A stretch of 41,231 bases of DNA from Runella sp. (GTDB lineage Bacteria > Bacteroidota > Bacteroidia > Cytophagales > Spirosomataceae): contig JALQYJ010000028.1 in assembly GCA_023254175.1 (NCBI GenBank), forward strand, positions 1 through 41,231. The letters run 5' to 3'. This document shows positions 11,698 through 40,970 of the stretch, piece by piece (positions within the stretch are counted from its first letter, which is position 1; the number at the start of each line of letters is the position of its first letter). The notes below the pieces were generated by a model. The model saw only the letters and a program-made list of their open reading frames with translations, was not told where the DNA came from and did no database searches. The translations under genes and the position numbers were made by a program.

Positions 11698-11700
11698 AGA

Positions 11701-11738: not shown

Positions 11739-11743
11739 GTATT

Positions 11744-12430: not shown

Positions 12431-12476
12431 AGAATAATCGAATAGATTGAGCAGATGAGTGATTAACTTGCTGCTG

Positions 12477-12484
12477 CAAAGTTA
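12477..12484 (-). promoter_or_regulatory. -7 box of purQ
   Basis: TAACTTTG on the minus strand matches the Bacteroidota -7 consensus, 46 bases before the purQ ATG. No TTTG -33 box is seen at the usual spacing. No PRPP-type riboswitch fold was recognised. Confidence 0.45.
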
Positions 12485-23767: not shown

Positions 23768-23813
23768 GATTTGATTATATTGCTCATTTGCTATTTACAC
23801 TTTCATTAACTGA

Positions 23814-24515: not shown

Positions 24516-24609
24516 TTTTCAAGAGCTAATTTCTCACTTTGGGCGATAAATTTAAAGAGAATATAGCCTAACTTGCTGCACTTTTTCAACTAACCACTTT
24601 ATTTGTTGC

Positions 24610-26718
24610 ATGAAAACAAACTGTTTACTTGCGGGGCTACTCGTTAGTGGTATGGCCTTTGCGCAAACTAATCCGCCAATCATGAGTGATAACCCACTTT
24701 TGCAGCCATTTTCAACGCTGCACCAGACACCACCTTACGACAAAATCAAAGTTGAGCACTTTTTGCCTGCCATCAAAGAGGCCATGGTAGAAGGCCGTAA
24801 GGAAATCGATGCCATCGTCAACAATCCTGCCAAGCCGACCTTCGACAATACCATCGTGGCTCTTGAGCGCGCAGGCGACCTCCTGAGCAAAATCACGCCC
24901 ATCATGTTTCATTTGAACGGCGCTGAAACAACCGCAGACCTTCAAAAAGCCATTCGCGAAGCTAGCCCTCTTTTGACCGAATACGGCAACGACATTTCGC
25001 TCAACGATAAGCTGTTTACTCGTGTAAAGGCCATTTGGAACCAGCGCGACAAACTCAAGCTCGATACCGAAGGAGCTATGTTGCTCGAAAAAAGCTACAA
25101 GTCATTCTCACGTAACGGTGCTAACCTCAACGCCACCGACAAAGAAAAGCTTCGCGGCATGAACAAAGAGCTTTCGCAACTTTCGATTGAATTTAACGAG
25201 CATAACTTGGCCGAAACCAACGAGTACGCGCTTCAAATCACCGACGAAAAAGACCTTGCAGGTCTTCCTGCCTTTGTAAAAGATGGCGCAAAAGCAACCG
25301 CCAAACGCCTTAACAAAGAGGGTTGGGTGTTTACGCTTCAAGCCCCAAGCTACGGACCATTTATGCAATACGCCGACAACCGCGAGCTTCGTAAAAAACT
25401 TTGGTTGGCCTACAACAAGCGTGGTTTTAACGGTGATAAAAACGACAACCAAGCCATTATTCAAAAAGTGGTGAAACTCCGCCACGAAAAAGCGAAGCTG
25501 TTAGGATACAAAACCTGGGCACACTACATTTTGGAAGAGCGCATGGCCGAAACGCCCGAAAAAGTATTGGCTTTTGAAAGCGAAATCCTCAGCTACGCCA
25601 AACCTGCCGCCCAGCGTGAGTTGAAAGAGTTGACCGACTACGCCAAGAAAAACGGCTTCTCGGAAGACGTATTGCAGCGTTGGGATGCGAGTTATTATGC
25701 TGAAAAACTCAAAAAAGAAAAATACAGCATCAACGACGAGCTATTGAAGCCTTACTTCAAACTAGAAAACGTACTTGATGGCTTATTTACACTTACCAAT
25801 AAGCTATACGGGCTCACTTTTAAGGAAAACAAAAACATTCCAGTATGGCATCCTGAAGTAAAAGCCTACGAAATTTTTGACGAAAAAGGTCAATTGCTTT
25901 CGGTATGGTACGGCGACTACTTCCCACGGGCAGGAAAGCGCGCAGGGGCTTGGAATAACACTACGCTTTCACAGCATTTTGAAGGGACGAAAGATGTTCG
26001 TCCACACGTAGTAAACGTTTGTAATTTCACGCGCCCAACTGACTCACAGCCGTCGTTATTGACCTTCCGTGAAGTTCAAACGCTCTTCCACGAGTTTGGG
26101 CACGCCTTGCACAGCATGATGTCGCACGTGAAGTATGAAACTGTGAGCGGCACCAGCGTATCGTGGGATTTTGTCGAGCTTCCAAGTCAGTTTATGGAAA
26201 ATTTCTGCACTGAACCTGAAGTGTTGAAGCTTTTTGCCAAACACTACCAAACGGGCGAAGTGATTCCGAATGAGTTGATTGAAAAAATCAAAGCCTCCTC
26301 TAACTTCCTTTCAGGACTAGGAATGGCACGCCAAATCAACCTTGGCTTGACCGATATGGCATGGCACAACGGTGAACCTACGGGCGAGTCAGTAACGGAG
26401 GTAGAAAAGAAAGTAGCCGAGCAAACCGACCTTTACCCGGTTGTTCTTGGTACGGCGGTGAGTACGTCGTTCTCGCATATTTTTGCAGGAGGATACTCAG
26501 CAGGATACTATTCGTACATGTGGTCGTCGGTATTGGATGCCGATGCGTTTGAAGCCTTCAAAGAAAGGGGGATTTTTAACCAAGACGTTGCCAAATCGTT
26601 CCGCGATAATATCCTTTCCAAAGGAGGAACCGAAAAGCCAATGGTACTGTACAAGCGTTTCAGAGGACGGGAGCCAAAACCCAACGCTATGCTAAAACGC
26701 GACGGTTTAGCCTTATAA
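24610..26718 (+). CDS. dcp: Exported M3 peptidase (peptidyl-dipeptidase Dcp-like)
   Basis: A 702-residue zinc metallopeptidase. The zinc site is HEFGH (H494, E495, H498), with the third ligand probably E523 in FVELPSQF. The substrate-binding C-terminal segment HIFAGGYSAGYYSYMW is typical of M3A peptidases. The N-terminal signal peptide (LLAGLLVSGMAFAQ) sends it to the periplasm, where it would trim dipeptides from short peptides. The closest match by pattern is Dcp rather than cytoplasmic OpdA. It ends at a strong bidirectional terminator. No sign of damage. Confidence 0.93.
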   Translation: MKTNCLLAGLLVSGMAFAQTNPPIMSDNPLLQPFSTLHQTPPYDKIKVEHFLPAIKEAMVEGRKEIDAIVNNPAKPTFDNTIVALERAGDLLSKITPIMFHLNGAETTADLQKAIREASPLLTEYGNDISLNDKLFTRVKAIWNQRDKLKLDTEGAMLLEKSYKSFSRNGANLNATDKEKLRGMNKELSQLSIEFNEHNLAETNEYALQITDEKDLAGLPAFVKDGAKATAKRLNKEGWVFTLQAPSYGPFMQYADNRELRKKLWLAYNKRGFNGDKNDNQAIIQKVVKLRHEKAKLLGYKTWAHYILEERMAETPEKVLAFESEILSYAKPAAQRELKELTDYAKKNGFSEDVLQRWDASYYAEKLKKEKYSINDELLKPYFKLENVLDGLFTLTNKLYGLTFKENKNIPVWHPEVKAYEIFDEKGQLLSVWYGDYFPRAGKRAGAWNNTTLSQHFEGTKDVRPHVVNVCNFTRPTDSQPSLLTFREVQTLFHEFGHALHSMMSHVKYETVSGTSVSWDFVELPSQFMENFCTEPEVLKLFAKHYQTGEVIPNELIEKIKASSNFLSGLGMARQINLGLTDMAWHNGEPTGESVTEVEKKVAEQTDLYPVVLGTAVSTSFSHIFAGGYSAGYYSYMWSSVLDADAFEAFKERGIFNQDVAKSFRDNILSKGGTEKPMVLYKRFRGREPKPNAMLKRDGLAL

Positions 26719-26720
26719 AA

Positions 26721-26758
26721 TAAAAGAGCCGCTCTGGTCAAGAGCGGCTCTTTTATTA
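26721..26758. terminator. Bidirectional terminator
   Basis: A perfect 15-base inverted repeat, TAAAAGAGCCGCTCT (26721-26735) and its complement (26741-26755), with a five-base loop and A/T tracts on each side, serving both the M3 peptidase gene and the small convergent gene. Confidence 0.9.
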
Positions 26759-26971
26759 GTTGACTGACATTCGTCGCCTCCTAAAATACTGATTAAGAAT
26801 AAGGGTGTACTTGTCGCTAAAACGTTCATAGCACCAAGCACGTAATTGCTTCACATCTTCTGGCACAAGCACTTTTAAGGCCTTACGTAATTCTTTTTCA
26901 AACAGTTTCTTGTCAAAACTCACTTTCACAAGTACGGTTTTGATGAACTCTAACATAGTTGCCATAATCAT
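26756..26971 (-). CDS. Small conserved hypothetical protein
   Basis: A 71-residue (or 66 from the third ATG) protein with no signal peptide, rich in Lys, Leu and Arg. The body MLEFIKTVLVKVSFDKKLFE, then VPEDVKQLRAWCYERF, predicts helices and ends in a basic RRRRM. I recognise no domain. Reasons to believe it is real: a clean frame, a -7 promoter box 42 bases upstream, a shared bidirectional terminator, and no overlap. Starts at 26971, 26965 and 26956 are all possible. Confidence 0.7.
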   Translation of the reverse strand: MIMATMLEFIKTVLVKVSFDKKLFEKELRKALKVLVPEDVKQLRAWCYERFSDKYTLILNQYFRRRRMSVN

Positions 26972-27012
26972 AACAAGATTTTAACGAACGTTAAGAGAAT
27001 GATGTAATTTCA

Positions 27013-27020
27013 CAAAATTA
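27013..27020 (-). promoter_or_regulatory. -7 box of the small hypothetical gene
   Basis: TAATTTTG on the minus strand, 42 bases before the ATG at 26971. It faces a plus-strand TAATTTTG (27057-27064) ahead of the batD-like gene, so this 107-base gap looks like a divergent promoter region. Confidence 0.45.
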
Positions 27021-27056
27021 ACATGAAAGGTTAGGGATTTTATACGCCTAGTCTGT

Positions 27057-27064
27057 TAATTTTG
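27057..27064 (+). promoter_or_regulatory. -7 box of the batD-like/aroC unit
   Basis: TAATTTTG followed by C, 14 bases before the ATG at 27079. No TTTG -33 at normal spacing. It would give a very short leader. Confidence 0.45.
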
Positions 27065-27078
27065 CACTAAATATAACG

Positions 27079-28491
27079 ATGAAACAGGGAAATATATATA
27101 TACTTATTTTAATTTTTTTTTGCACTATATCTTTATCATGGGCGCAAAATGAAGAAAACCCCTTTTCTATTGAATTTGGCGGCACTCAGATAGATATCAA
27201 TGAGCCGTTTGTGATTTCGGTCAAAGTAGCTGGAATCGACCCAATGCCGCTTATTTCGTTCCCCGATAATATCAAAAACTTCCAAAAACGAGAAAGTTCA
27301 CGGTCGAGTTTTACAAATAAAGTCGGAGGAAAAACAATCGTTACTTATACTATTTCTCAAAATTATTATCCAATAAAAACAGGTATTTTTTCTACGGGTC
27401 CCCTCGAAATTTTAATCAATAAGCAGGTGCTACGTTCGGAAGGTACTTCCATCATTGTGGGCAAAACAGACCAGTTAGAAGATACAAAGATTGAGACCTT
27501 TAAAGATATACATACTGAACCCGCGAAAGAAGCAACGACAGGGGCTTTTTTATCGGTACGTGTCGACAAACGAAGTGTGTACGTAGAAGAAGGTTTCAAT
27601 CTGCGTCTTTCGCTGATTGTATCGGAAAGCAATGCAACTGAAATGGATTTTTTTGACGTAGAAAAACAACTCGAACAAATCCTAAAAGTGCTCAAACCTG
27701 CCAATTGCTGGGAAGAAAATTTCGGTATTCAAGAGATTCCTGCCATTCCTATTAAAATCAAAGGTAAAGCCTTTACCGAGTACCGTATTTATCAAGCTTC
27801 TTTTTTCCCGTTCAATAACCAAGCTATTTGGATTCCAGCAGTGACATTTCTGATGAAAGTCCTACCTAAAAACGACACCAACGAAAAAGCACCAAGCTAC
27901 CTTAGTTTTTTATCACGCCCTACCTCAGTGCAAGTCAAGAGTCTCCCTGCCCACCCGCTTCGCAATCAGGTACTAGTAGGAAATTTTCAGCTTGAAGAGA
28001 AAATTAGCACGACTCAGTTAGAAACAGGTAAAAGCTACCATTATGATTTTAAAATCATTGGTGACGGCAATATCAAGTCGATTCAAGAGCCTGTATTTAC
28101 CAACAAAGCTTTGTTTGATGTCTATCCGCCCGATGTAGAGGATAGTATTTTGCGAAAAAAGGGAAAAATTACGGGCAAAAAAACGTTTCATTACCAAATC
28201 ATTCCCAAACAAAACGGAGCTTTTGACCTAAACAACAACGTTTTTTGGGTATTTTTTAATCCTCAAAAACAAAAATATGATACATTACGCTCTACATTAA
28301 AACTGGTCATCACGGGAAAAAATATTCAAAATACCCAACTAGCGGGAGAAACGGTGGAGTCAATTTATAACGGGATAGAACACTGGGACACCACCAAATT
28401 TGTTTTTGATTACCAAAAAATCATTCGTAACGTAGCTAATGTTTTGGTCATCATCATGTTACTAAGTATGATTCTTATCTTTCGAAAATAA
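27079..28491 (+). CDS. BatD-like protein
   Basis: A 470-residue membrane-anchored protein: signal peptide ([16 protein letters not shown]), a large beta-rich extracytoplasmic part, and a C-terminal transmembrane helix ([14 protein letters not shown], about 453-467) ending in a short basic tail. The opening block ([20 protein letters not shown]), the [13 protein letters not shown] segment and the second domain with LRLSLIVSE are the layout of BatD (PF13584), part of the Bat aerotolerance set. The usual batA, batB, batC and moxR genes are absent here, so it is a detached copy. Its stop overlaps the aroC start by one base (TAATG), so the two are translationally linked. Confidence 0.84.
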
Positions 28492-29576
28492 TGAGTAGTA
28501 CCTACGGAAAACTTTTCAAAATAGCCACTTTTGGCGAGTCTCACGGCGCAGCCATCGGAGTCGTGATAGAAGGCTGCCCAGCGGGTGTACCTTTCGACTT
28601 GGCTTTCATTCAGCAAGAGCTCGACCGCCGCAAACCAGGCCAGTCGCGCATCACCACCCAACGCCGCGAAGCCGATACCGTACAGGTACTATCGGGCGTT
28701 TTTGAGGACAAAACAACAGGCACGCCCATTGCCATGATGATTTGGAACGAAGACCAGCGTAGCAAAGATTACTCACACATTGCGCAGCAATTTCGACCTT
28801 CGCACGCTGATTTTACGTACCAAACCAAATACGGCGTTCGCGATTATCGCGGAGGAGGCCGCAGTTCTGCTCGCGAAACCGCTGCCCGCGTAGCTGCAGG
28901 AGCCTTGGCAAAATTGGTATTAAAAGACCTAGGCGTTGACGTACAAGCGTACGTTTCGCAAGTAGGTAAACTTAAGCTCGCCAAAGAATACTACGAACTC
29001 GACCTCTCACTTACAGATACGAACGCCGTGCGCTGCCCCGACTCCGAAATGGCGCAAACGATGTTTGATTACATCGACGATATTCGCAAACAGGGTGACT
29101 CGATTGGGGGGGTAGTAAGCTGCGTTATAACAGGTACTCCCGTAGGTTGGGGAGAACCCGTTTTTGATAAACTTCATGCCGAATTGGGCAAAGCGATGTT
29201 GAGTATCAACGCCGTGAAAGGTTTTGAATATGGTAGTGGTTTTGCTGGCGTAGAACTGCAAGGCTCAGCTCACAACGATGCTTTTTATACTGACAAAACG
29301 GGCCGCGTTCGCACTCGCACCAACCATTCGGGCGGAATCCAAGGGGGTATTTCCAACGGCGAAGACATCTTCTTCCGTGTGGCATTTAAACCCGTGGCGA
29401 CCATCATGCAAGACCAAGAAAGTGTAGGCCAAAACGGCGAATCTATTACAGTACAGGGCAAAGGACGCCACGATCCTTGTGTATTGCCACGCGCTGTGCC
29501 GATTGTCGAAGCCATGACGGCGTTGGTGTTGGTAGACTTCTATCTACGAGACAAAAGCGTTAGGCATAATTTTTGA
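28491..29576 (+). CDS. aroC: Chorismate synthase
   Basis: A 361-residue enzyme that makes chorismate from EPSP with reduced FMN, the last step of the shikimate pathway. Signatures: [20 protein letters not shown] (residues 14-33), [41 protein letters not shown] and the C-terminal [20 protein letters not shown]. Length is normal. It follows the batD-like gene with a one-base overlap. Its stop codon overlaps the -33 box of the dnaN promoter. Confidence 0.97.
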
Positions 29577-29602
29577 TAGTATGCTACTTTATCGTAAATT
29601 TG
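29572..29602 (+). promoter_or_regulatory. Promoter of dnaN
   Basis: TTTG (29572-29575), exactly 19 bases, then TAAATTTG (29595-29602): full match to the Bacteroidota housekeeping promoter. The -33 box overlaps the aroC TGA. The leader would be about 20 bases. Confidence 0.7.
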
Positions 29603-29627
29603 TTGTTTATTAAACGTACATTTTGCT

Positions 29628-30752
29628 ATGAAATTTACCGTATCGTCGTCAGTATTGCTTAAGCAACTTGCCGCAATCAACGGCGTCGTTTCAACCAACC
29701 CTATCGTACCGATTCTTGAGAATTTTTTATTCCAACTCGACGGTGATTCGCTTACCGTTACGGCCTCTGATTTACAGACCGTAATGATTACCGAAATCCA
29801 AGTAGAGTCATCGGACAAAGGAGCGATTGCTATACCTGCCAAATTACTTTTAGATACCTTACGTGGTCTTCCTGAACAGCCTATCGCCATCAAAGTAGAT
29901 AGTGACACGTTTGGAATTGAAATCGTGTCTGAAAACGGCCGCTATAAACTCTCAGGCGAAAATCCGATTGACTTCCCTAAGATTCCATCAGTCAACCGCG
30001 CATTTTCGGTAGAGCTGTCTTCCACATCCCTCATGAGCGCCATTGTAAATACCATTTTCGCCACTAGCACCGACGAACTTCGTCCTGCGATGACAGGTGT
30101 ATTTTTACAACTAGGTGCCAATCACGCAACGTTTGTAGCGACCGACGGCCACCGTTTGATTCGCTATCGCCGCTTCGATGTCAAATCGGCCGTAGATACG
30201 ACAATGATTATTCCGCGCAAAGCACTCAACTTGCTCAAGTCTTCACTGCCTGACAACGTTCCAGTAAAAGCTGAATTTAGCCAATCGAACGCGTTTTTTA
30301 GCTTTGCCAATATTAAAATGATTTGTCGGTTGATTGACGAGCGTTTCCCTGATTACGAAAACGCCATTCCAACCAACAACCCGAACGTGCTGACCATCAG
30401 TCGTGGCGAAATCTTAAACTCTTTGCGCCGTATTTCGATTTACTCCAACCGCACGACGCACCAAATCCGTCTTAAATTGACCCCTCCTAACGAATTGGTC
30501 ATTTCGGCCGAAGACTTGGATTACTCGAACGAAGCCAACGAGCGTTTGCTTTGTGAGTACAATGGCGACGAAATGGAAATCGGGTTTAATGCGAAGTTTT
30601 TGATTGAGATGCTCAACAACGTTAACTCAAATTCTTTGTCATTTGAGTTGTCAGCACCTAACCGCGCAGGTATCGTTGTTCCACTCGAAAAAGAAGACGA
30701 CGAAGATATTTTGATGCTCGTGATGCCAGTGATGCTCAATACCTACGCATAA
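29628..30752 (+). CDS. dnaN: DNA polymerase III beta subunit (sliding clamp)
   Basis: A 374-residue sliding clamp that tethers the replicative polymerase to DNA as a ring dimer. N-terminal MKFTVSSSVLLKQLAAINGV and PILENFLFQ, the middle block LRPAMTGVFLQ with TDGHRLIRYR, and the C-terminal motif ILMLVMPVML are all typical of the three-domain clamp. It is not next to dnaA, as often in Bacteroidota. It has its own promoter and is followed after 3 bases by a VTT-family membrane protein gene. Confidence 0.97.
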   Translation: MKFTVSSSVLLKQLAAINGVVSTNPIVPILENFLFQLDGDSLTVTASDLQTVMITEIQVESSDKGAIAIPAKLLLDTLRGLPEQPIAIKVDSDTFGIEIVSENGRYKLSGENPIDFPKIPSVNRAFSVELSSTSLMSAIVNTIFATSTDELRPAMTGVFLQLGANHATFVATDGHRLIRYRRFDVKSAVDTTMIIPRKALNLLKSSLPDNVPVKAEFSQSNAFFSFANIKMICRLIDERFPDYENAIPTNNPNVLTISRGEILNSLRRISIYSNRTTHQIRLKLTPPNELVISAEDLDYSNEANERLLCEYNGDEMEIGFNAKFLIEMLNNVNSNSLSFELSAPNRAGIVVPLEKEDDEDILMLVMPVMLNTYA

Positions 30753-30755
30753 GCG

Positions 30756-31424
30756 ATGAAATCATCAAAAGAATTACTGATGCCGAGTCTCTCGGCATTT
30801 TTTTTGACCGTGCTGCCATTCATTAATAGTTCGGCAGTAGGTTGGTGGCTTGTTCAAAACGAAAGTTATATTCGGAGTTTTAGCGTAAGAGAGTGGGCCA
30901 TTGCATCGTTGGTATGCGCGTTGGCTTGTGCCTTAGCCCTCACTCCTCCTACCCTATTGGCCTTTGTATTTGGGTATTTCCTAGGGTGGATTGCTCTCTT
31001 ACCGTTGATTTTACTTAACCTGGCAGCCATCGCTCTTGTCTATTTATTCGTACAGCGCATCGACCGCGACAGCCTATTGCGTTACTTATCACAGTTTCCC
31101 AAAATAGCTCGTTTTCTCCAACGTATCCATGGAGATGAAATTCGATTTGTATTTTTCACCAAGCTTTCGCCTGTCTTGCCTTTTGCCCTTACCAATCTCA
31201 TGTTTGCCTTAATGGGACTACGTTTTCGGAACATCATTTGGGGAGGATTTTTGGGCATGATTCCCCGCACGGCGCTTGCGGTATGGGTCGGGATGGAAGC
31301 CCAACATATCAAACAACTCCTCCAAAACCCTAACCAAGGGCTTGAAAGTAGGGTTATCATCATTGTCTTGGTCATTCTTTCCGTCATTGGATTGCTGCGA
31401 GTGGTTGCTCCTAAGGAGAAATAG
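30756..31424 (+). CDS. VTT-domain (TVP38/TMEM64, DedA-like) membrane protein
   Basis: A 222-residue integral membrane protein with about five hydrophobic segments (near 10-30, 46-65, 67-95, a central 135-165 and a C-terminal 197-217). The block FVFFTKLSPVLPFALTNLMF followed by FLGMIPRTALAVWVG is the VTT signature: a re-entrant segment with conserved Pro, Arg and Gly. Proteins of this type flip or move lipids such as undecaprenyl phosphate or phospholipids; the exact substrate is open. It begins 3 bases after dnaN, so it is probably co-transcribed. Confidence 0.85.
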   Translation: MKSSKELLMPSLSAFFLTVLPFINSSAVGWWLVQNESYIRSFSVREWAIASLVCALACALALTPPTLLAFVFGYFLGWIALLPLILLNLAAIALVYLFVQRIDRDSLLRYLSQFPKIARFLQRIHGDEIRFVFFTKLSPVLPFALTNLMFALMGLRFRNIIWGGFLGMIPRTALAVWVGMEAQHIKQLLQNPNQGLESRVIIIVLVILSVIGLLRVVAPKEK

Positions 31425-31510
31425 AGGGCAGATTTTGGCACCAAACTAAAGTACGCTCAAAGCACAAATCTACAGTATCAACCTTTTTTTGTAAAATAAC
31501 AGCATAGTAT

Positions 31511-34500
31511 TTAACGAATCAGTACAAATCCTGCCCAGTAGAAAGGCGAGTATTTCTTCATCATTTCCCGCTGAGCATTGTTAAAAGCCGCTTCGATGGA
31601 TTGTTTTCGCGCTAACCCCGTATAAAACAGTTTCATCATTTCAGAGGTTTCCCTGTCAGGAATTTGCCAAAGCGTCATTAACAAATAATCGGCTCCTGCC
31701 AATTTAAAAGCTCGTTGTAATCCAAAAACACCTTCGTTGCTTTTTTGCTCTCCAAGTCCTGATTCACAAGCACTTAAAACGACTAACTTAGAGTTTATAT
31801 TGAGTTTTGAAATTTCTAATGCAGTTAGAACACCGTCTTCCTCATCAGCATCATTAATAACATCACTATCATTAGCTCCTGCCAAAGCAAGTCCTGCGTT
31901 TAGCATTGACTCAGAGCTTCGGTAGTACTCTTCCTGTATTTCATCTGATTGACCAGTTATCAGCATTTTATCATAAAAGCCATGGGTGGCCACATGAAGT
32001 ATATCAGGCTGAGTTTGGGAAGTATATTTACTTTTGAAATCATATTCACCCGCTTTCTTATGGGTAAAAGTTGAAATGTTTTTTTGGGGAAATGTCTTCA
32101 GTATTTTTTGAATTGCATTAATTTCTATTTCTGTTCCTGGTAGATATTTCCAATTTTGCCCTCTGGATAATTCTACCTTAACACCCCTTAAAGCGATTGG
32201 AGCATTAGTCGTCTTTATTCGCTCAGGTTTTTTATCATAGTCGATGGCTCCCCATAAATCTGCCGAAATTTGCTCATCATTATACAATACAATAGAATCG
32301 CCAAAGGCATTTTGGAAATTTGTAAGACGTTTCAATTCAAAGGAAGTAAACAAAAACTTATTGTTTTCATCCTGCAAAGCGGAAAACGCTATGCTGTTGA
32401 GTATACCCGTTGGGATATAACTTACTTCCTTGATTCCTTCCAGAAATGGCACGATTGGTTTCCATAGCAAATTATACAGGTGAAAGGACATATAGGCTTT
32501 GTCAATAGCCTGTTCGTCCTTCATATTGTCAATAACCTTTCTAACTTCATTTTCTTCAGAAAGCGTCACAATCATGGGGTTTTTCATTTGGTGGGTATAC
32601 ACAATTGCCCCATATTTAATACTCTGCCCTCCCATTGAACCTAAATCCGTATAGGAGAAATACTCTACTATGGCTTGATGTGGTTCTAATTTATTTAATA
32701 AGTTAAAGCAATCGAAAGAAGTAAGCTGATTGACAAACATTGAAACACTATCAATCATTTGCCCCTCTAAATTGAGGTAATCTTCCCTATTTTTTACATT
32801 TATATCACCAAATGCAGGTCTGTCAATCTCTCTACCATATTCTATTTTTGCCGATACCCAAGAGCGAAATAAATCCTCTCGGGCTTTGAGTGTATTGTAT
32901 TTTTTGACATAACCATACCACTTCATCGCATCAGCGACGGCTTCTTTGTGTTTTTGGGAGCCAAAATCAGCTCGTCTCGCTGCTCTTTCGTGCATTGGCA
33001 TAACAATCTCCGCAACCATTTTATGCGTAACATCCCTTGAAGATACCCTGAAATTTTCTCGTATAATTCGCTGACCTTTTAACTGCAAACTTCGTGAATT
33101 CAATAAATAATTGGCTACAATCTTTCCAAGAGCTGGGTTCGTCGTAGATTTCTCAACGCATATATTCAAGAGTTGGTCAATGTATTTTTGATGTAAATTG
33201 AGAAACGTATCATATTCAAAATCACCAAGCATAAAGGCAGCTAAAGTCTGTTGTCTTTTATTTATTACTTCGCTCATTTCACTTAATGATTCATTCAATG
33301 GAAGAATTTTATTATTTTGGTAATAATAATTTATCAATTCATACAGGACATCGGTATACACATCACTGTAGAGTCCCCATTCCTTTAGGGTACTTAATTT
33401 TAGGTTTTTTAAACCTTGTTCTGCTTCAAAAGTTTTACCCATTTTCCCCCACAACAAATACAGATTCTGTTCCATTCTAAAAGCATTGGAAGACTTAGCT
33501 GGTAATTCACTTATACGTTTTAAAGTATTGACATATAGGCGTTCTGCCTCTTTTAATTTACCCTCCACAACCAATGTATTGCCTTGCTCAATCATTGATT
33601 TCAAATACCTGCTTTGAGTCAATTCATTATCAATTAAAAGATTTTCTACTTCTGAATTTTTATCCTTTTTATAAATGCTCAACAGGGCCTCGTTTGTAGT
33701 AAGGATAACCTCGCCCATTAGACTTTGGTAATGCTCAAAGAAATCCTTGAAGCCATCTGTAATCTTTTCTTTTTGGATGACTGGATTTGGCTCATCTTGA
33801 ATTGTCGGGGCAAAAAACAATCGTAATTTTTGTACAATTTCATTGGCTTTTTCTGAATAAATCTCAAAGTCTTCATATTGGTGTAGTACTTGATAGCACT
33901 GAGCCATTTTAATAGACAATAGTAAAGCGTAATTATTTACCTTATAGGGGACAATATTCCATAATTTATGATACAATGTCAGTGCTTCTGTATAGTTACC
34001 TATAGACTGATAAGTTTCGGCCAAATAAGACAATAATATTCTTTGACGGGTATTTTTTTGCAAAGAATCATACGTTTCTATTTGAGATAAAGCATCTTGA
34101 ATTTTCAAAATTTTGGATTGGGAATCGCTTTTTGGATAAAGCCAGCATTCAGCGATGATTTCATCTGCATAAAAAAGACTGTTATCAGGTATGATTTGGC
34201 GCAATTGAACTGCTTTTTGATAGCATTCTTCCGCCAGCTGCGGAGTACCGAGTTTTAGATATATATTAACTGCTTTCCAATAAAATCGGAGAAGAATCTC
34301 ATTATCGTTCGATTTTTGGGCTATGATTCTTGCTTTTTTAATCAGCTTGTCAACTTCTGGGGCGTTATCCAGTTGACTTTCTGCATATCGGAATAAAATC
34401 CGTATGACATTTTCCGCTATTTTAGGATTAGAAAAGTCTTCTTTATCCATTTTATCCAACAGGGGCGCATAATACTCCTCTGGTTCAATTGCTGTTCTTT

Positions 34501-35842
34501 CAAAAACGGAAAAACGAGTACTTTCTCCCAAAAGCTCAATCTGTAAAGAAGGATTAGACCTTATCGGGTCTTGAAAATTACTTAAATGATTATGTATCTG
34601 TTTGATTGTTTTTTCGTTTTTCGGAATATATTCCCAAATGAGGGAAGTTGTTGATGTAATATCTTGTATCAACTTTTGAACAGAGTTGGAATTTTTACCA
34701 TATAAATAATTTAAAACATGATGTGGATTGATGTTATAATTATTACTACCCGGACGTTGATTTTGGAGCGATAAGTTCAACTCCCAATTTGACTGCCTGC
34801 TAAGCGTATGATAAAAAAGCAGTGATTTAATAAATTCGATACGGTTTATATCTTCGTAGTCAAAAGGTTGATAAATATAAGTAGCGAATGCCCTCTGTCC
34901 TTTTGCTAAAAAACTCAACGCACCTTCTTTCGTACGTTCATTTATCGAACGGGAATATTTTATTTGGGTTAACGCTTTTTCACCAGCCTGTTCGTGTAAA
35001 TGTGCCTCTAATTCAAATCGTTCAGGAATAGAAATAGGAATAAGTTCGATTTTCTTTGTTTCTGCCTTGGAATGTTGGGTTACATTTTGTGGAGCAGTTT
35101 TATCCTTTAAAACACTTACCACATCCATATATCCTTTTGATTCAGCAATTTGAAGTGCGGTTTGTCCTTTCTTATTTCTAAGGTTAGGGTTGGCACCTGC
35201 CCACAACAGGCGTTTGCAAACCTCTTCATCATTTACGAATGCAGCGAGCATAAGTGGCGTAAAATCACCCATACTCATTGTCGCCACTAAATCTACCTTC
35301 GATTTTTGTAACCTTGCATTATCACCGTATAAAAAAACATTTATGAACTGTATCTCATTGCACGCACGATGGAGAGGAGTGATGCGGGTAGTATTATTTG
35401 GCGGAGCTACATCATATTCAAAAGGAGATTGTTTCGCATTTTCGTAAAGAATTTTGACCGCACTGTATTCGCCGCTGATGACCGCGGCACTCAGCACACT
35501 TCCAGCATAGGCATCGGGCGTATTTTGTTTGAGATAGATAATTCCCTTTATATTAGGATTAGCTCCTTTATTCAATAAGAACTCCATAAGTGTCCAATTT
35601 CCCCGAAGGGCAGCCCACATCAGCGCAGTAGCACCGTTCTCGTCTCTTGTATTGATATCTACTCCTCGATTAAGTAATGTGATAAAATTACCTTCGGAAG
35701 CTGAATTTTTGGCATAAGAAATCCAAAGCCCTTGCAAAACTTCCTTATCCTGTTTATTTAACGTTTGAGCCATTCCAAAGGAAGAAAAAATCAGTAACAA
35801 AGCTAACGTATAGCAGCAATAGTACTTAGAAAAGTTGTTCAT
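31511..35842 (-). CDS. Exported ankyrin-TPR-CHAT caspase-like protein
   Basis: A giant protein of 1443 residues (numbered here from the upstream ATG at 35872, which adds 10). The ATG at 35842 gives a classical signal peptide (YTLALLLIFSSFGMAQ). Ankyrin-type repeats fill about 55-265 (ATALMWAALRGN, FTPLMLAAFVNDE, GQTALQIAESKG). A linker follows, then TPR-like helices from about 540 to 900 (AEECYQKAVQLRQ, TEALTLYHKLW). A CHAT protease domain occupies about 1130-1453, with catalytic H1297 in HVATHGFYD and C1369 in VVLSACESGLG, then GVFGLQRAFKLAGA and MTLWQIPD. Both catalytic residues are intact. CHAT domains are caspase-like peptidases. Base use is more AT-rich than the housekeeping genes. It is divergent from a sigma/anti-sigma pair. 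Confidence 0.88.
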   Translation of the reverse strand: MNNFSKYYCCYTLALLLIFSSFGMAQTLNKQDKEVLQGLWISYAKNSASEGNFITLLNRGVDINTRDENGATALMWAALRGNWTLMEFLLNKGANPNIKGIIYLKQNTPDAYAGSVLSAAVISGEYSAVKILYENAKQSPFEYDVAPPNNTTRITPLHRACNEIQFINVFLYGDNARLQKSKVDLVATMSMGDFTPLMLAAFVNDEEVCKRLLWAGANPNLRNKKGQTALQIAESKGYMDVVSVLKDKTAPQNVTQHSKAETKKIELIPISIPERFELEAHLHEQAGEKALTQIKYSRSINERTKEGALSFLAKGQRAFATYIYQPFDYEDINRIEFIKSLLFYHTLSRQSNWELNLSLQNQRPGSNNYNINPHHVLNYLYGKNSNSVQKLIQDITSTTSLIWEYIPKNEKTIKQIHNHLSNFQDPIRSNPSLQIELLGESTRFSVFERTAIEPEEYYAPLLDKMDKEDFSNPKIAENVIRILFRYAESQLDNAPEVDKLIKKARIIAQKSNDNEILLRFYWKAVNIYLKLGTPQLAEECYQKAVQLRQIIPDNSLFYADEIIAECWLYPKSDSQSKILKIQDALSQIETYDSLQKNTRQRILLSYLAETYQSIGNYTEALTLYHKLWNIVPYKVNNYALLLSIKMAQCYQVLHQYEDFEIYSEKANEIVQKLRLFFAPTIQDEPNPVIQKEKITDGFKDFFEHYQSLMGEVILTTNEALLSIYKKDKNSEVENLLIDNELTQSRYLKSMIEQGNTLVVEGKLKEAERLYVNTLKRISELPAKSSNAFRMEQNLYLLWGKMGKTFEAEQGLKNLKLSTLKEWGLYSDVYTDVLYELINYYYQNNKILPLNESLSEMSEVINKRQQTLAAFMLGDFEYDTFLNLHQKYIDQLLNICVEKSTTNPALGKIVANYLLNSRSLQLKGQRIIRENFRVSSRDVTHKMVAEIVMPMHERAARRADFGSQKHKEAVADAMKWYGYVKKYNTLKAREDLFRSWVSAKIEYGREIDRPAFGDINVKNREDYLNLEGQMIDSVSMFVNQLTSFDCFNLLNKLEPHQAIVEYFSYTDLGSMGGQSIKYGAIVYTHQMKNPMIVTLSEENEVRKVIDNMKDEQAIDKAYMSFHLYNLLWKPIVPFLEGIKEVSYIPTGILNSIAFSALQDENNKFLFTSFELKRLTNFQNAFGDSIVLYNDEQISADLWGAIDYDKKPERIKTTNAPIALRGVKVELSRGQNWKYLPGTEIEINAIQKILKTFPQKNISTFTHKKAGEYDFKSKYTSQTQPDILHVATHGFYDKMLITGQSDEIQEEYYRSSESMLNAGLALAGANDSDVINDADEEDGVLTALEISKLNINSKLVVLSACESGLGEQKSNEGVFGLQRAFKLAGADYLLMTLWQIPDRETSEMMKLFYTGLARKQSIEAAFNNAQREMMKKYSPFYWAGFVLIR

Positions 35843-35896
35843 ATTCAATTTTCTAGAAGAGTTAACACCCATTAAAATTCATAAAAAAAATTCACA

Positions 35897-35921
35897 AAAA
35901 GTTTAAACATCAAAAACTTTG
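35897..35921. promoter_or_regulatory. Inverted repeat in the CHAT/sigma divergent region
   Basis: Arms AAAGTTT and AAACTTT lie about nine bases apart in the 125-base space between the CHAT gene and the sigma gene, and could be an operator. On the plus strand TTTG at the right arm followed 18 bases later by TTATTTTG approximates a promoter for the sigma gene (one base off consensus). Confidence 0.3.
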
Positions 35922-35967
35922 TATACCCTTGACTTTGGTTTATTTTGCGTTATAAACCTTTGACCTG

Positions 35968-36582
35968 ATGATCAGCGATAGTGACCTTTTAGAGCTTATC
36001 AAGCAAAATGACCGTAAAGCTTGGCGAGAACTGTACGGGCGTTATAAAAATCCCATTGGTAATTTTATGAGAAATTGGTCCTGCAAAGGCCCCGATTTCG
36101 ACGATGTGTATCAAGAAACGATGATTCGGTTTGATGCTCAATGTCAAAATATCAATTTAGAAGCTACACTCAAAACGATTATCATTTCTATCGCCAAACG
36201 AGTCTGGTTTGAGACCTTACGTAACCGAAAAAAAAATGGCATACTTGCGGATAGCGAACAACGTGTCTTTGCTCAATTGAGTACTGAAGAACAAATAAAG
36301 CCCGATTCCGAAGAACCGTTTTTTAATCCCGAAGAAGAAGTCTTTGACCTTTCGGGTAAAGTTGTGGAGGCTATGTTGAAAATACGCTCTGGGGATTGTG
36401 CTGATATATTCCACGCTCGGTATTGGTACAAAATACGGGTAGATGAGGTGGCAGAGCAATTTGGTATCAATTACAACTCTATGCGAACCAAAATCTATGA
36501 GTGTAAGCAATCGTTAAAACGATTGTTACAAAAAGCCGGTGTGAAGTTTCCAACCTCCAAAAATTCAAAAGACGATGAATGA
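35968..36582 (+). CDS. ECF-like sigma-70 family RNA polymerase sigma factor
   Basis: A 204-residue sigma factor with regions 2 and 4 only. Region 2 (10-90) includes FDDVYQETMIRF for core binding and a -10 recognition helix ending in RVWFETLRNRKK. Region 4 (about 130-188) has the helix-turn-helix VAEQFGINYNSMRTKIYECK. A 40-residue acidic linker lies between. There is no FecA/TonB gene nearby. The last 8 bases overlap the start of the anti-sigma-like gene, so the two are coupled. Confidence 0.9.
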   Translation: MISDSDLLELIKQNDRKAWRELYGRYKNPIGNFMRNWSCKGPDFDDVYQETMIRFDAQCQNINLEATLKTIIISIAKRVWFETLRNRKKNGILADSEQRVFAQLSTEEQIKPDSEEPFFNPEEEVFDLSGKVVEAMLKIRSGDCADIFHARYWYKIRVDEVAEQFGINYNSMRTKIYECKQSLKRLLQKAGVKFPTSKNSKDDE

Positions 36583-37318
36583 GATAGAAAGAGATGAACT
36601 CTACGAAAAGTACCTGATGGGGGAAGCTAACGAAACGGAGCGTCAACAGGTAGAAGCAATGATTGCCTCTAATGAGACCTACCGAGCGGAGTTTGATACC
36701 CAAAAAATTTTACTTGCCCATATCCAGCAAAACCGTCGGCAGGAACTGAAAGATATGTTTGCCGAATTTGAAGATGAGATGAAAGACCAAGAGGTCAAAG
36801 TCATACACGTAAATTGGTGGCAACGCTCGGCAGTAAGATATGCGGCTGCTATTACTGGAATATTGTTGGTGGCAGGTATATTAGTTTGGAACAATTGGCC
36901 AAAAACAGGTGATGAAATTGCGGGCAAAGACGACAGTACCAAAATTGTAAAAGACTCTACCCTGAAACAACAATTGGAGGCGCCTAAAGCACCCGAACAA
37001 ATCGCCCAGGATACCCCAAAACAACGGCCTATGGAAGGTACAATGTCCCTACCGATTTACGAATCTTCGGATTCGGGCATGGGCTTTGGCAAAAATCAAA
37101 AAGCAAAGGATACCTTGGTAGTTCGATTTGAAAAAGCTGATTCGCCTATGTATGAATTTGGGGATACTCTTACCATTTCTGTACCTTCTCCCTTTGTCTA
37201 TTCATCAAAGTGGCGTATCGTCTATGACCGTTTGAATGATACCTATTATTTTACGGATGGAAAAATACGCTATGCGTTGGTAAAAGGAGCAAAAGAACCA
37301 TTAGTTGAACAAAAATAG
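36575..37318 (+). CDS. One-TM anti-sigma-like membrane protein
   Basis: A 247-residue protein: an acidic, helical cytoplasmic part (1-80), one transmembrane helix (88-105, AVRYAAAITGILLVAGILVW), then a 140-residue periplasmic part with a Pro/Lys/Gln-rich linker and a beta-rich end (MYEFGDTLTISVP, WRIVYDRLNDTYYF). The short N-terminal motif ELYEKYLMGEANETERQQVE resembles the start of anti-sigma factors in Bacteroidota (no zinc HxxxCxxC). Location, topology and overlap with the sigma gene support this, but there is no direct proof. It converges with the M48 gene, 3 bases apart. Confidence 0.72.
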   Translation: MNEIERDELYEKYLMGEANETERQQVEAMIASNETYRAEFDTQKILLAHIQQNRRQELKDMFAEFEDEMKDQEVKVIHVNWWQRSAVRYAAAITGILLVAGILVWNNWPKTGDEIAGKDDSTKIVKDSTLKQQLEAPKAPEQIAQDTPKQRPMEGTMSLPIYESSDSGMGFGKNQKAKDTLVVRFEKADSPMYEFGDTLTISVPSPFVYSSKWRIVYDRLNDTYYFTDGKIRYALVKGAKEPLVEQK

Positions 37319-37321
37319 CCC

Positions 37322-38938
37322 TTATTGACTCTTTTGTTCAAAAATCGTCCATTCTTCCACGCGCCCGTTGTTGACCACAAACCAACAGCGGGCGTTTTCA
37401 TACCCATACCAGAAAACGTCGTTTCCAGCGGGTATCTTTTGCGAAGGGACTCCGTACAATTCTAGCAAACGGGCTTCAGTGTCACCCTTCTTTAATTGTT
37501 GTTTGGTTTGCCATTGAGCTGTACAAGCTGTAGCATGAATCACGTCAAATTGCTTATCTGCTAACTTAACGTTGAAAGAAAATAGTCCATCCGTAAGGGC
37601 ATAAGAAGTGCGGATAAAGTCTTGGCCGGGCAAATTAAATTGATTGGGTAATGAGGCCGCTACTAAAGGGAGCTTTAGATTAAAAATTTGATTTTCAATA
37701 GGTTTTGAATTTTCTTTATGAGCAGCATTCTTTTTTTGAAACACTTGAAGCGAATCAACATTTAATTCCTCTCGCTGATTAAACCACGAAAAATACTTCT
37801 TCAATAAAGAAACATTATACTGCTGCTCATAGACGTTGTTCAGTAATCCTATTTGCCTTTTCACGCCTCTTTCGTTTTTATTTTGGGCAAAGGTAATGGC
37901 TTTGAGCAATTGGCCATTGGGGGAAAGTTTACCCCCGTTAGTTTCCCATTTTTTTAGTAAATCTTCAGCTGCACCGTTTTGATTTTGGAGCAAATAGGTG
38001 GAACAAAGCCCCAAATACCCTGCTTCATATGTAGGGTCTTGCTCTATCAGATTCGTAAAAATGCGCGATGCTTCGTTGAGCATTTTTTGTCGTTTTTCTT
38101 CTTCCCCACTGCGCAAATCCGACAGCATCCGATTGGTGGCTGCCAACTCAATGGGTAATTTAAACGGCATAGTACTGAGTGACGTCATTTGGTAGGCTTG
38201 CTGCAGCCACGCAATTCCTTGATTATGAATTACTTCCCGAATCGGCAGGAGATTGCTAATATAACGATAACAGCGTTCGGCTAATGCGTACTGACCGTTT
38301 AGAAATAGGAAATTGCCGGTCTCAAACACAACGCCCGCATTACGAGCTACTACGGACTGTTCCTGAGCCAGCTTGATTCGTTCATCTCGTGAGAAATATC
38401 CCGGTATATTCAACTCCAGTTTATAGTCGGTATAAATTTTCTCATACAGAGGTTTGACAATGGAGAAAGGCTGATAGCCCGCTACAAAGGCTTGAAACAT
38501 GCCGCGCTGGTCGGCCTGCAATTCCAGTCTTTTCTTTTCTTCGGCCTTTACGGGCGGCGGTAATTTCTTCGCCAATTGGGCGAACCCCATCCATTCGTTG
38601 TGCCGTTCGTAATAATGGGTGAGTTCGTGGGCCAGAACTAATGCCAGTGCCGTGGTAGAATCTGCGCCAAAAGATTGGCAAATATCATAGAGTTTTTCAT
38701 CGAAATAGAGTACAGGCTCCCCTACCAAAATCATTTCAGCGATGCGACCGCTTTTACTGCGGACAGGCATTTCGAGACGGGGGGCAGACCGTCTGTCTCC
38801 GAAGGTACGGGCTATCTGCTCGGTTACCTGTAGCGTAACTTGGTATTTGTAATGAGTCGTAGGTAGTATCCCTTGAGCTGAGGCCACGTGAGCGAAGGTG
38901 GTCAGGAGAAGGCTAAATCCGAAAAAAAGACGAATCAT
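37322..38938 (-). CDS. Exported M48-type metallopeptidase with TPR-like repeats
   Basis: A 538-residue exported protein. Signal peptide (LFFGFSLLLTTFAHVASA, cleavage after about 21). A zinc peptidase domain has HELTH (104-108) and the third ligand E139 in ELQAD (139-143), the M48 arrangement. The remaining 350 residues look helical and TPR-like (GNFLFLNGQYALAERCYRYI, EAGYLGLCSTYLLQNQNGAA), followed by a beta-rich end that closes WYGYENARCWFVVNNGRVEEW. It should act on proteins in the periplasm. It lies convergent to the anti-sigma-like gene, and its own upstream region (38939-39052) is shared with the next gene. Confidence 0.83.
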   Translation of the reverse strand: MIRLFFGFSLLLTTFAHVASAQGILPTTHYKYQVTLQVTEQIARTFGDRRSAPRLEMPVRSKSGRIAEMILVGEPVLYFDEKLYDICQSFGADSTTALALVLAHELTHYYERHNEWMGFAQLAKKLPPPVKAEEKKRLELQADQRGMFQAFVAGYQPFSIVKPLYEKIYTDYKLELNIPGYFSRDERIKLAQEQSVVARNAGVVFETGNFLFLNGQYALAERCYRYISNLLPIREVIHNQGIAWLQQAYQMTSLSTMPFKLPIELAATNRMLSDLRSGEEEKRQKMLNEASRIFTNLIEQDPTYEAGYLGLCSTYLLQNQNGAAEDLLKKWETNGGKLSPNGQLLKAITFAQNKNERGVKRQIGLLNNVYEQQYNVSLLKKYFSWFNQREELNVDSLQVFQKKNAAHKENSKPIENQIFNLKLPLVAASLPNQFNLPGQDFIRTSYALTDGLFSFNVKLADKQFDVIHATACTAQWQTKQQLKKGDTEARLLELYGVPSQKIPAGNDVFWYGYENARCWFVVNNGRVEEWTIFEQKSQ

Positions 38939-39001
38939 GGTAGGGTGAGTTTATTTTTTGCAAAAAAACAAAAAAAGTTCGCTGTTCCCCCCCTGACATT
39001 T

Positions 39002-39026
39002 TCAACAGTCAATCATCAACAGTCAA
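39002..39026. repeat. Direct repeat upstream of the acyltransferase-like gene
   Basis: TCAACAGTCAA occurs at 39002-39012 and 39016-39026, a 14-base period, between the divergent M48 and acyltransferase-like genes. It could be a tandem operator. No match to a known regulator is claimed. Confidence 0.4.
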
Positions 39027-39052
39027 ATAAGTTCAAACGCTAATCCCTGTTG

Positions 39053-39715
39053 ATGATGAAAACTTTCACAAACATCCGTTTTTCTGTATTTCTTCGTTGG
39101 TTGAATCCCGTCGTTTTTAAGCACATTTCTACCCCCGAAGAGCTTTCACAATTTGAGGCTTATTATTCACAAAAAAGCCGTGGCTTACAGGCCAAGCCTG
39201 CTTATTTGGCCAAAGCCTGCACGTTGGTTTTTTACCGCTATGCCCGGCCTGACCGGTGGCTGGGTGGTGTGGCACTCAACTCCCAAGCTCCCTTTCGGTA
39301 TTTGGCTTCTTTTGATGAAGTAACGACGCAGGAATTGTTAAACTCCAAGAATATTGACCCTTGCAGCCTGCTCGAAATCACCTGCCTATGGATGAACCGT
39401 CAGCATATCAGTTCATTTGAGCGGTTTATGATTTACTTTTTATTCTTGGGTAAGGTTTGTTTATCGCCGCCGCAAACCATTATCTGCGGTTCGTTCCATC
39501 AAGGTTTGATAAAAATGTACGAGCAACTGTTTGCCTCGATTTTAGTGGAGGGCGTCGTAGAGGCTGCCGGTCACAAGGCGTATGCCAAAACCTTCTATAC
39601 CACACGATGCAAGCTATTATGGCGAATGCTCCGACTGGTCTTTACGGGCAGTTCGGTGGCTTTCAGGTCTCGGCAAAGCCTATCCTTACCCAAAGCCCAA
39701 GCGACTTACAGGTAA
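39053..39715 (+). CDS. Uncharacterised protein, possibly acyltransferase-like
   Basis: About 220 residues, no signal peptide. The pattern TLVFYRYARPDRWLGGVALN, then LLEITCLWMNRQ, SFERFMIYFLFLG and IICGSFHQGLIKMYEQ recalls GNAT- or FeeM-type N-acyltransferases, but the match is by pattern only and may be wrong. The last 40 residues (from about 180) are rich in Arg, Leu and Ser and look unlike a folded end; two other frames stay open here, so a late frameshift is possible. The upstream TTG at 39050 is not needed. It lies downstream of a tandem repeat. Confidence 0.55.
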   Translation: MMKTFTNIRFSVFLRWLNPVVFKHISTPEELSQFEAYYSQKSRGLQAKPAYLAKACTLVFYRYARPDRWLGGVALNSQAPFRYLASFDEVTTQELLNSKNIDPCSLLEITCLWMNRQHISSFERFMIYFLFLGKVCLSPPQTIICGSFHQGLIKMYEQLFASILVEGVVEAAGHKAYAKTFYTTRCKLLWRMLRLVFTGSSVAFRSRQSLSLPKAQATYR

Positions 39716-39977: not shown

Positions 39978-40970
39978 ATGAAAAAAAGTATCTTCTTTGC
40001 TACCCTCCTACTAAGTGCTGGTTTTATGTATTCCTGTTCCAAAAAACCACAAAACCAAAAAGCAGTATTTCCATCTGCTCCATCTGCTACGGGCAACGCG
40101 GAAAACCTAACCCGCGAAACCAGCGAACCTTCTAATGAATTTTATCCTCGTGTGAGCTCGGATGGTAAATATCTTTATTACAATGCTATTGAAACCAATA
40201 CCACTGGTGGAGGACTCAACATTGATAACCTCCTGTCAGGAAGAGGGAGTTTGTTTAATCCGGTGGTGGTAACCAATAAAAAAACCAAAATTGTTCGCAA
40301 AGAGATTGGAATGCCTACCACCAACCCGCTCAAGGACAATGCGGCAGATGCCACCGTAATGCCCAACGGAAATATTTTGTTTACCTATGTTCTTCCTTCC
40401 AAGCCTGTGATTGCCTACACTTCTCCCGAAGGTATGGGAATAAATTACATTTCTCAAGGGGAATTAGGAGATGATGATTCTCAGCCTGTTATTTCAAAAG
40501 ACGGGTCGAAGATAGTATTTAGTACGCTCATCGGTGGAAACCGAATGATCTGTTCGATGGATCAAAAAGGGGGTAGTTTCACGGTGATTACAGAAGGGTA
40601 TAAACCTCAGTTTTTACCTAACGATGAGACACGAATAGTGTACAATCTGACTGTTAACAAATATGTACAGATGTTTACGCTCAACCTGAAAACAGGCCAG
40701 AAATCACAACTCACCACGGGAGAATACCACAATAAAGATGCCGCATACTCGCGAGATGGACGGTATGTGGCCTTTGTAAGTAATCGAGAAACACCAACTT
40801 CAAGCCGCCACCATGTGTATGTAATGAAGGCCGACGGCACTGAAATAAAGCAGATAACCCAAGGTGAAACCGATGAAGCCGACCCCACTTGGGGGCCTGA
40901 TGGTATGCTATTTTTCTCCTCCAATGCCGCTAAAAACTACAGTATTTGGAAGGCCAAGCCAAGATTGTGA
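39978..40970 (+). CDS. TolB-like (PD40) beta-propeller lipoprotein
   Basis: A 330-residue lipoprotein with a signal sequence (MKKSIFFATLLLSAGFMYSC; the acceptor is C20, with a slightly weak lipobox). The body has WD40-like PD40 blades: FYPRVSSDGKYLYYNA, QPVISKDGSKIVFST, DAAYSRDGRYVAFVSNRE and ADPTWGPDGMLFFSSN. This matches the TolB/periplasmic propeller family, which bind peptides or polysaccharide or scaffold complexes. It follows the direct repeat at 39764 and ends at a strong terminator. Confidence 0.83.
   Translation: MKKSIFFATLLLSAGFMYSCSKKPQNQKAVFPSAPSATGNAENLTRETSEPSNEFYPRVSSDGKYLYYNAIETNTTGGGLNIDNLLSGRGSLFNPVVVTNKKTKIVRKEIGMPTTNPLKDNAADATVMPNGNILFTYVLPSKPVIAYTSPEGMGINYISQGELGDDDSQPVISKDGSKIVFSTLIGGNRMICSMDQKGGSFTVITEGYKPQFLPNDETRIVYNLTVNKYVQMFTLNLKTGQKSQLTTGEYHNKDAAYSRDGRYVAFVSNRETPTSSRHHVYVMKADGTEIKQITQGETDEADPTWGPDGMLFFSSNAAKNYSIWKAKPRL

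Follow-up and report, generated by a model that had tools for sequence, protein, structure and literature searches.

CHAT protease, M48 metallopeptidase and ECF sigma factor genes in a Runella-like genome: a possible protease-gated switch in the envelope

Related systems and the four-gene locus

The stretch of DNA analysed here, called the window, is the entire 41,231-base contig C67 of a 4.85 Mb Runella-like draft genome, G000 (G designates a genome, C a contig, L a fetched stretch and f1 the family of Runella zeae, by our own equation probably the Spirosomataceae). Four neighbouring genes, all open and intact, encode a protein with ankyrin repeats, a tetratricopeptide repeat (TPR) body and a CHAT protease domain, an extracytoplasmic function (ECF) sigma factor, an anti-sigma-like protein with one predicted transmembrane (TM) helix, and a metallopeptidase. 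In the literature surveyed, a CHAT protease acting on a sigma inhibitor is known from one CRISPR subtype: in the Csx29/Csx30 system, the inhibitor of sigma has been shown to be cleaved (PMC10028731). In this type III-E Craspase (Csx29 TPR-CHAT, Csx30 and CASP-sigma), as in the window, a TPR-CHAT protein is encoded together with an ECF-like sigma factor and an inhibitor. The window differs by an export-like signal on its CHAT protein, by a membrane-spanning inhibitor candidate and by a contig without a RAMP gene; in addition, the loci surveyed often include an M48 or subtilase gene.

A sequence-only reading of the same DNA had proposed a CRISPR-independent analogue of Craspase, and the setting agrees: no RAMP match lies on the window contig, no CRISPR genes stand beside the locus, and the RAMP search of the contig revealed no fused Cas7-11 effector next to CHAT. 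RAMP matches in G000 are confined to contig C134, as separate open reading frames (ORFs). Among six module-bearing genomes searched, four had no RAMP match and two had some. The locus shows no soluble cytoplasmic Csx30-like substrate; the partner there has one predicted TM helix.

Regulated proteolysis of the RseA/DegS/RseP type acts on membrane anti-sigma factors. Our locus is similar in having a membrane anti-sigma candidate with a periplasmic domain, a proposed protease input and site-2 protease genes in the genome; it is different in that the candidate site-1 proteases are CHAT and a BepA-like M48 protein rather than DegS, and in that the one-TM protein has no family match. This type of proteolysis is named in PMC10028731. 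For the ECF54 group, nearby CHAT, subtilase and carboxypeptidase genes are described and proteolytic control is proposed (PMC8999054). In loci surveyed here, which we liken to that group by neighbourhood, ECF sigma genes likewise stand next to CHAT and subtilase genes; in the window, a one-TM anti-sigma-like gene follows the sigma gene. Finally, EACC2/caspase systems bring a caspase-like protease, TPR and an ECF sigma factor into one neighbourhood and have variable C-terminal regions (PMC8195603). They share these traits with our locus but have other domains, and the part of that paper available to us does not describe an exported CHAT with a TM anti-sigma. Among the matches listed from the open PubMed Central literature, no title or beginning of an abstract names the present arrangement, which does not imply its absence from print. 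A search with PADLOC gave ankyrin- and TPR-type matches for the CHAT proteins and one 13-bit sigma match (E 0.0092); because of these matches, the locus was not filed as a known defence system.

The locus is laid out as follows.

31511..35872, minus strand: gene of the Ank-TPR-CHAT protein (ORF; 1453 residues from the first ATG)
35873..35967, no strand: divergent intergenic region between CHAT and sigma genes, 95 bases (from the sequence)
35968..36582, plus strand: ECF sigma factor, 204 residues (TIGR02937, 4.5e-15)
36575..37318, plus strand: anti-sigma-like one-TM protein, 247 residues (ORF and structure model)
37322..38938, minus strand: BepA-like M48 metallopeptidase, 538 residues, with export-like signal, TPR and C-terminal beta domain

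The one-TM gene overlaps the sigma gene by 8 bases, and the metallopeptidase gene converges on it at a distance of 3 bases. The sequence-only reading had placed the same four genes here; the 1443 residues it gave to the CHAT protein correspond to the second ATG (31511-35842).

Linkage of CHAT, sigma and protease genes

Profiles grown from the window proteins were used to annotate 115 fetched stretches (L152 repeats L073), which hold 95 CHAT, 76 sigma and 44 M48 ORFs. The loci are related to one another, and the numbers given are counts, not independent events. Thirty f1 regions were picked only for CHAT (L118-L137 and L158-L167, the best listed CHAT match per f1 genome, G003, G013, G017, G025 and G043 being left out). 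An ECF sigma gene was found within 3.2 kb in 27 of these; the neighbour in L161 is unclassified. The three misses were L134 and L159, on short or cut contigs, and L127. When all f1 CHAT ORFs were considered, some in regions picked for other genes, a sigma gene lay within 3.2 kb for 36 of 41, the five others being that of L080 and four near a stretch end. In contrast, of 35 CHAT ORFs that a CHAT match had selected in other families, none had a near sigma gene (28 stretches; nine of the ORFs stand in two tandem arrays, and six lie close to the end of a stretch). In other families, CHAT with a sigma gene nearby does occur in loci chosen for M48, so that this contrast concerns CHAT genes at large.

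The background was estimated from 20 genomes of approximately 132 Mb, in which ECF sigma matches numbered at least 733, or 5.6 per Mb (7.3 per Mb in eight f1 genomes; in six of the 20, only 108 sigma candidates were scored). By chance, a sigma gene is expected near about 5-7% of CHAT genes. CHAT matches numbered 130, 48 of them in G061, and their density without G061 was 0.64 per Mb. The linkage of CHAT and sigma genes in f1, which the sequence-only reading had named as a point for a neighbourhood survey to check, is therefore real, being well above background. G061 has its 48 matches in a 4.1 Mb genome; four stand in tandem in L168, where no sigma gene was found.

CHAT matches to the window protein occurred in at least 76 of 99 relatives, with at most 5 candidates scored per genome. 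M48-like matches were rarer: 12 of 99 relatives at E ≤ 0.001, some of them weak. A family profile, with 3 candidates scored in each genome, hit 37 of the 390 genomes from the order (E ≤ 1e-10) and 6 of the 395 from the phylum (E ≤ 1e-20). The M48 gene, also named as a partner beforehand, is found in similar company: a sigma gene lies within 3 kb in 21 of the 44 M48 loci and within 8 kb in 27, and CHAT lies within 6 kb in 18. In L068, an ORF between M48 and CHAT (9881-11575) gave weak trypsin-like and TPR matches, both below Pfam cut-offs, and is possibly a third protease.

The anti-sigma-like proteins fell into classes. For 5 of the 76 sigma ORFs the rule used gave no anti-like ORF, and 2 more were passed over for being too short; the remaining 69 partners had a C-terminal half of class A in 22 cases (beta domain, as in the window), of class B in 37 (TPR-like) and of neither class in 10 (unclassified). 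The gene following class A was M48 in 14 cases, CHAT in 2 and another in 6, whereas class B was followed by CHAT in 16 cases, in all of which the two genes converge directly, by M48 in 1, sigma in 1 and another in 19. Once the window was included and the repeated stretch removed, M48 lay within 1.5 kb of 18 of 22 class A genes versus 3 of 37 class B genes (Fisher, 1.1e-8). Three stretches (L063, L104, L106) contain two back-to-back sigma-anti pairs, class A facing M48 and class B facing CHAT. In 13 loci, an ORF of 454-616 residues stands between anti-sigma and CHAT; three were tested (L119, L121, L128), and all three were subtilases. By a crude signal rule the subtilase candidates are mixed, some lipoprotein-like and several without signal. 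The only other CHAT match of G000 (C84; L077, 3550-7561) lies beside a class B sigma/anti-sigma pair that converges with it.

Viewed most simply, these loci form a family of sigma/anti-sigma/protease modules open to subtilase, M48 and CHAT genes. In the window, the module is of class A: its M48 gene converges with the anti-sigma gene, and its CHAT gene flanks the pair on the opposite side. Because its periplasmic half belongs to the M48-linked class, M48 is, at this locus, no weaker a candidate cutter than CHAT, and CHAT may act upstream of M48 or beside it.

The encoded proteins and a mosaic CHAT body

The CHAT domain of the window protein matched Pfam PF12770 with 178.6 bits (cut-off 24, E 2.4e-52) and the ankyrin part reached about 75 bits (Pfam, E 3.5e-21), while every TPR model stayed under its Pfam cut-off.

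31517..32479, minus strand: CHAT domain, residues 1132-1452 (Pfam)
31766..31768, minus strand: codon of catalytic Cys1369 (aligned column Cys in 94 of 95 CHAT ORFs)
31982..31984, minus strand: codon of catalytic His1297 (aligned column His in 94 of 95)
31883..35140, minus strand: replaced body, approximately residues 245-1330 (7-27% identity per block with R. zeae)
35048..35686, minus strand: ankyrin repeats, the part constant at the locus (Pfam and R. zeae comparison)
35768..35842, minus strand: putative signal peptide (sequence and crude rule)

His1297 and Cys1369, read as intact beforehand, are present, and the only CHAT ORF without the dyad is a fragment lacking that part. An apparent group of many CHATs without the dyad was an artefact of a narrow regular expression, and alignment showed the dyad to be kept. 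Export of the CHAT protein, part of the same reading, is consistent with an N-terminus that is export-like by a crude rule, with cleavage likely between A35 and Q36 (numbering from the first ATG). Of 54 CHATs lying no more than 4.5 kb from a sigma gene, 46 passed this rule; the R. zeae CHAT fails it, although its N-terminus resembles that of the window protein. Against the PDB, the CHAT end as a single query sequence found no match, but the CHAT profile matched chains labelled 'CHAT domain protein' (8d9h, 7x8a and others, E 2e-8 to 1e-7) and 8rot_B (3.5e-10). The chains so labelled we take to be Csx29. Given these profile matches, the protease domain is a distant relative.

The sigma factor matched the ECF model TIGR02937 with 55.7 bits (cut-off 42.9); no ECF group model was among the best 25 of its 39 library matches. 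The one-TM protein matched nothing in Pfam or NCBIfam, and its structure model (pLDDT 76, pTM 0.39) has a low-confidence stretch between the TM helix and the beta domain.

36581..36787, plus strand: N-terminal helices 3-71, candidate anti-sigma domain (model; non-significant matches to RsiW, RslA and MucA)
36815..36892, plus strand: predicted TM helix, residues 81-106 (model)
37037..37303, plus strand: predicted periplasmic beta domain, residues 155-243, class A (model and C-terminal classes)

When this model was compared with PDB folds, 5 of 50 listed matches were anti-sigma chains (RsiW, RslA, MucA). Among 33 anti-sigma-like N-termini, 5 matched zf-HC2 at E ≤ 0.5, 1 matched RseA_N, and any further Pfam family matched at most 2. 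Sequence-profile searches of the PDB with anti-sigma alignments found no anti-sigma chain, and a BFVD fold search of the model gave nothing significant. Taken with its place after the sigma gene, the N-terminal matches and the non-significant fold matches make the protein a likely membrane anti-sigma factor. In five g66 loci (L067, L083, L091, L092, L095), the N-terminal domain of the class A protein appears doubled in the alignment. In many class A proteins, the tail carries Pro-Leu, or something similar, close to the C-terminus (alignment A4; about 37295-37315 in the window).

For the metallopeptidase, Pfam Peptidase_M48 gave 14.0 bits on the window protein alone, under the cut-off of 20.3; seven of 10 family members, the window included, matched at E ≤ 0.1 (best 2.8e-5).

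38615..38629, minus strand: HELTH zinc motif, residues 104-108 (H104, E105 and H108 invariant in 36 of 36)
38510..38524, minus strand: ExxAD motif, residues 139-143 (E139, A142 and D143 invariant in 36 of 36)

The seven best PDB matches of its AlphaFold model (pLDDT 82, pTM 0.83) were all chains of BepA (YfgC), the E. coli M48 protease with TPR, at E 2.2e-5 to 5.2e-4 and low TM-scores (0.19-0.32). Unlike BepA, the window protein has an extra C-terminal beta domain in its model; identity is 13-16% and the gene context is another. By its modelled fold, it is a BepA-like M48 protein. The exported HELTH peptidase of the sequence-only reading agrees with family matches, invariant motifs, modelled fold and an N-terminus that is export-like by the crude signal rule, which 41 of 44 M48 proteins pass.

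The closest locus found was that of R. zeae DSM 19591, of the same genus (L062, the same contig as G008:C19); the single-sequence contig scan reached R. zeae only, and an alignment query would have reached further. DNA 35141-39066 is 83% identical between the two, with identities of 88% for sigma, 83-84% for the anti-sigma and 86% for M48. The CHAT protein is a mosaic: it matches R. zeae in its ankyrin start and over its final ~120 residues, but not in the ~1,080 residues between. By blocks of 60 residues, identity is 52-97% over residues 11-250 (71% for residues 11-260 as a whole), 7-27% over 251-1330 and 57-77% over the remainder. The only fetched CHATs to match the ankyrin part were that of R. 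zeae (71%) and, across 58 residues, that of L080. Starting at about residue 760, the window protein matched the CHAT of L100, from another genus (G695), at 42, 41 and 69%, with one further 60-residue match upstream. In the same search, the R. zeae TPR body had no match to L100, and for the first part of the R. zeae CHAT domain L100 was absent from the six best matches listed.

Such a replacement was seen in three of five close pairs, defined by a sigma identity of at least 85% and a CHAT gene within 4.5 kb: window/R. zeae, L119/L122 and L107/L108, but not L121/L123 or L129/L163. In L119/L122, the replaced stretch takes in the gene preceding CHAT. In L119, a 616-residue subtilase gene beside CHAT (10630-12480) is missing or replaced in L122, the flanks being 81-91% identical. 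The replacement of the CHAT body looks like an exchange of sensor segments; very fast divergence is the alternative. The sequence-only reading had assigned sensing to ankyrin and TPR parts together. A sensor role of the TPR body is favoured, because the repeat body is replaced between close relatives; the ankyrin part is less sensor-like because it stays with the locus.

Inheritance of the whole segment is patchy. Window positions 23687-31436 share 88% identity with G001 (with G010 and G004, up to 31414); on this side of the window, identity with R. zeae is 71-76%. The module (83%) and a TolB-like gene beyond it (86%) matched only R. zeae among four genomes searched, 40 of 56-62 candidates being scored per genome; no M48 relative was found in the other three, where the few candidates were all scored. 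The synteny break with the nearest relatives falls just past the CHAT stop codon. This pattern suggests horizontal gain of a segment that starts somewhere between the VTT gene and the stop codon of CHAT and extends at least to the end of the window. Alternatively, the module was lost in the other relatives.

39978..40970, plus strand: TolB-like PD40 protein, probable lipoprotein (3.1e-222 to L062; syntenic in R. zeae)

Shared synteny only suggests that the TolB-like gene belongs to the module. Between it and the M48 gene lies a 221-residue ORF of unassigned family (39050-39715); at its place in R. zeae, no ORF of at least 100 residues is listed. A relative (31% identity over 114 columns) occurs in L080 (7133-7813), near an ankyrin-CHAT gene of G048.

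A candidate relay and competing explanations

We propose, tentatively and at a little less than an even chance for the relay as a whole, an envelope-located, protease-gated ECF sigma switch. The sigma factor would be held at the inner membrane by the one-TM anti-sigma, with the beta domain in the periplasm, where the exported BepA-like M48 protein and the exported Ank-TPR-CHAT cysteine protease would act. A trigger would be met by the exchangeable TPR body of CHAT, which, directly or by switching on M48, would have the periplasmic domain of the anti-sigma cut; a site-2 protease would then free the sigma factor. Site-2 protease genes were present in six of six genomes searched. The relay fits these genes, the linkage, the tracking of protease by anti-sigma class, the kept dyad and the replacement of the CHAT body. 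As to whether CHAT or M48 would make the first cut, the domain class favours M48. Topology and folds of the one-TM protein are predicted; its anti-sigma function, both cleavages, the order of events and the trigger are what we infer. Overall, the interpretation given by the sequence-only reading is partly supported.

Several observations weigh against the relay. Cleavage, and sigma binding by the one-TM protein, are putative, and the PDB fold match to anti-sigma chains is not significant (best E of any match 0.65). The sigma tree gives a single supported independent contrast for the association of class with protease (4 on all branches), so relatedness alone could produce it. Exceptions exist on both sides: class B with M48 within 1.5 kb (L084, L085, L112), class A directly beside CHAT with M48 further off (L064, L086), and class A with no M48 found (L073, L131). 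The 10 of 69 unclassified halves are followed by CHAT in 3 cases and by another gene in 7. In 17 of 44 M48 loci, no sigma gene was found within 8 kb, some stretches being short. Since several subtilases of the TPR-type operons have no signal, not every linked protease is clearly exported.

The main rival makes the proteases an output and not an input: the periplasmic domain of the anti-sigma would sense envelope stress in another way, and the freed sigma factor would turn on the neighbouring CHAT, M48 and subtilase genes, whose products would serve in quality control or as effectors. We judge this possible but rather unlikely. The E. coli gene bepA is part of the sigma-E regulon. The 13 loci whose 454-616-residue ORF stands just before CHAT, on the same strand and after sigma and anti-sigma, point the same way, as such operons would make sigma together with proteases. 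Output does not by itself explain why anti-sigma class tracks the protease, and shared promoter words, admittedly a weak test, were hardly above those of shuffled pairs. Bipartite words shared upstream of sigma and CHAT averaged 10.10 of 12 positions in 51 pairs (shuffled 9.90, sd 0.62), those of sigma and M48 10.27 in 26 pairs (shuffled 10.08, sd 0.69); at least 11 of 12 were shared in 12/51 versus 29/198 shuffled pairs and in 9/26 versus 23/93, respectively. This slight excess may mean nothing, because divergent pairs share DNA.

A second alternative, which we consider improbable, is that two units share the locus, a sigma/anti-sigma/M48 module and a CHAT gene merely adjacent to it. It would account for the five g66 loci named above, which have class A and M48 and no CHAT in the stretch, for the 13 of 22 class A pairs without CHAT within 2.5 kb, and for a synteny break just beyond the CHAT stop codon. 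It accounts less well for CHAT within 6 kb of 18 of 44 M48 genes in several families, where density predicts about 0.5, and for the conservation of the divergent region and the ankyrin part with the module in R. zeae. That the locus is a cytoplasmic, CRISPR-guided Craspase-like system is highly implausible: the profile match to chains taken to be Csx29 is in its favour, but the export-like CHAT signal, the predicted TM helix of the partner and RAMP matches that in G000 are separate ORFs on C134 only, and in four of six genomes none, speak against it.

In a wider reading, which we consider unlikely, the locus would serve an innate-immunity-like, CRISPR-independent envelope surveillance in Cytophagales: an exported CHAT caspase would use exchangeable, recombining TPR cassettes to detect periplasmic foreign proteins of phage, toxin or predator origin, and a relay of proteolysis via M48, subtilase or trypsin-like partners would destroy a membrane anti-sigma factor and thereby start a transcriptional defence. 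The replaced sensor body would give a handle on what CHAT recognises. The gene set is suggestive of an alarm system at the cell surface that does without CRISPR. If the relay works, it would be an envelope-located version of sigma control by a CHAT protease, common within one bacterial family, and would offer a case of transcription governed by caspase-like proteolysis that can be tested directly.

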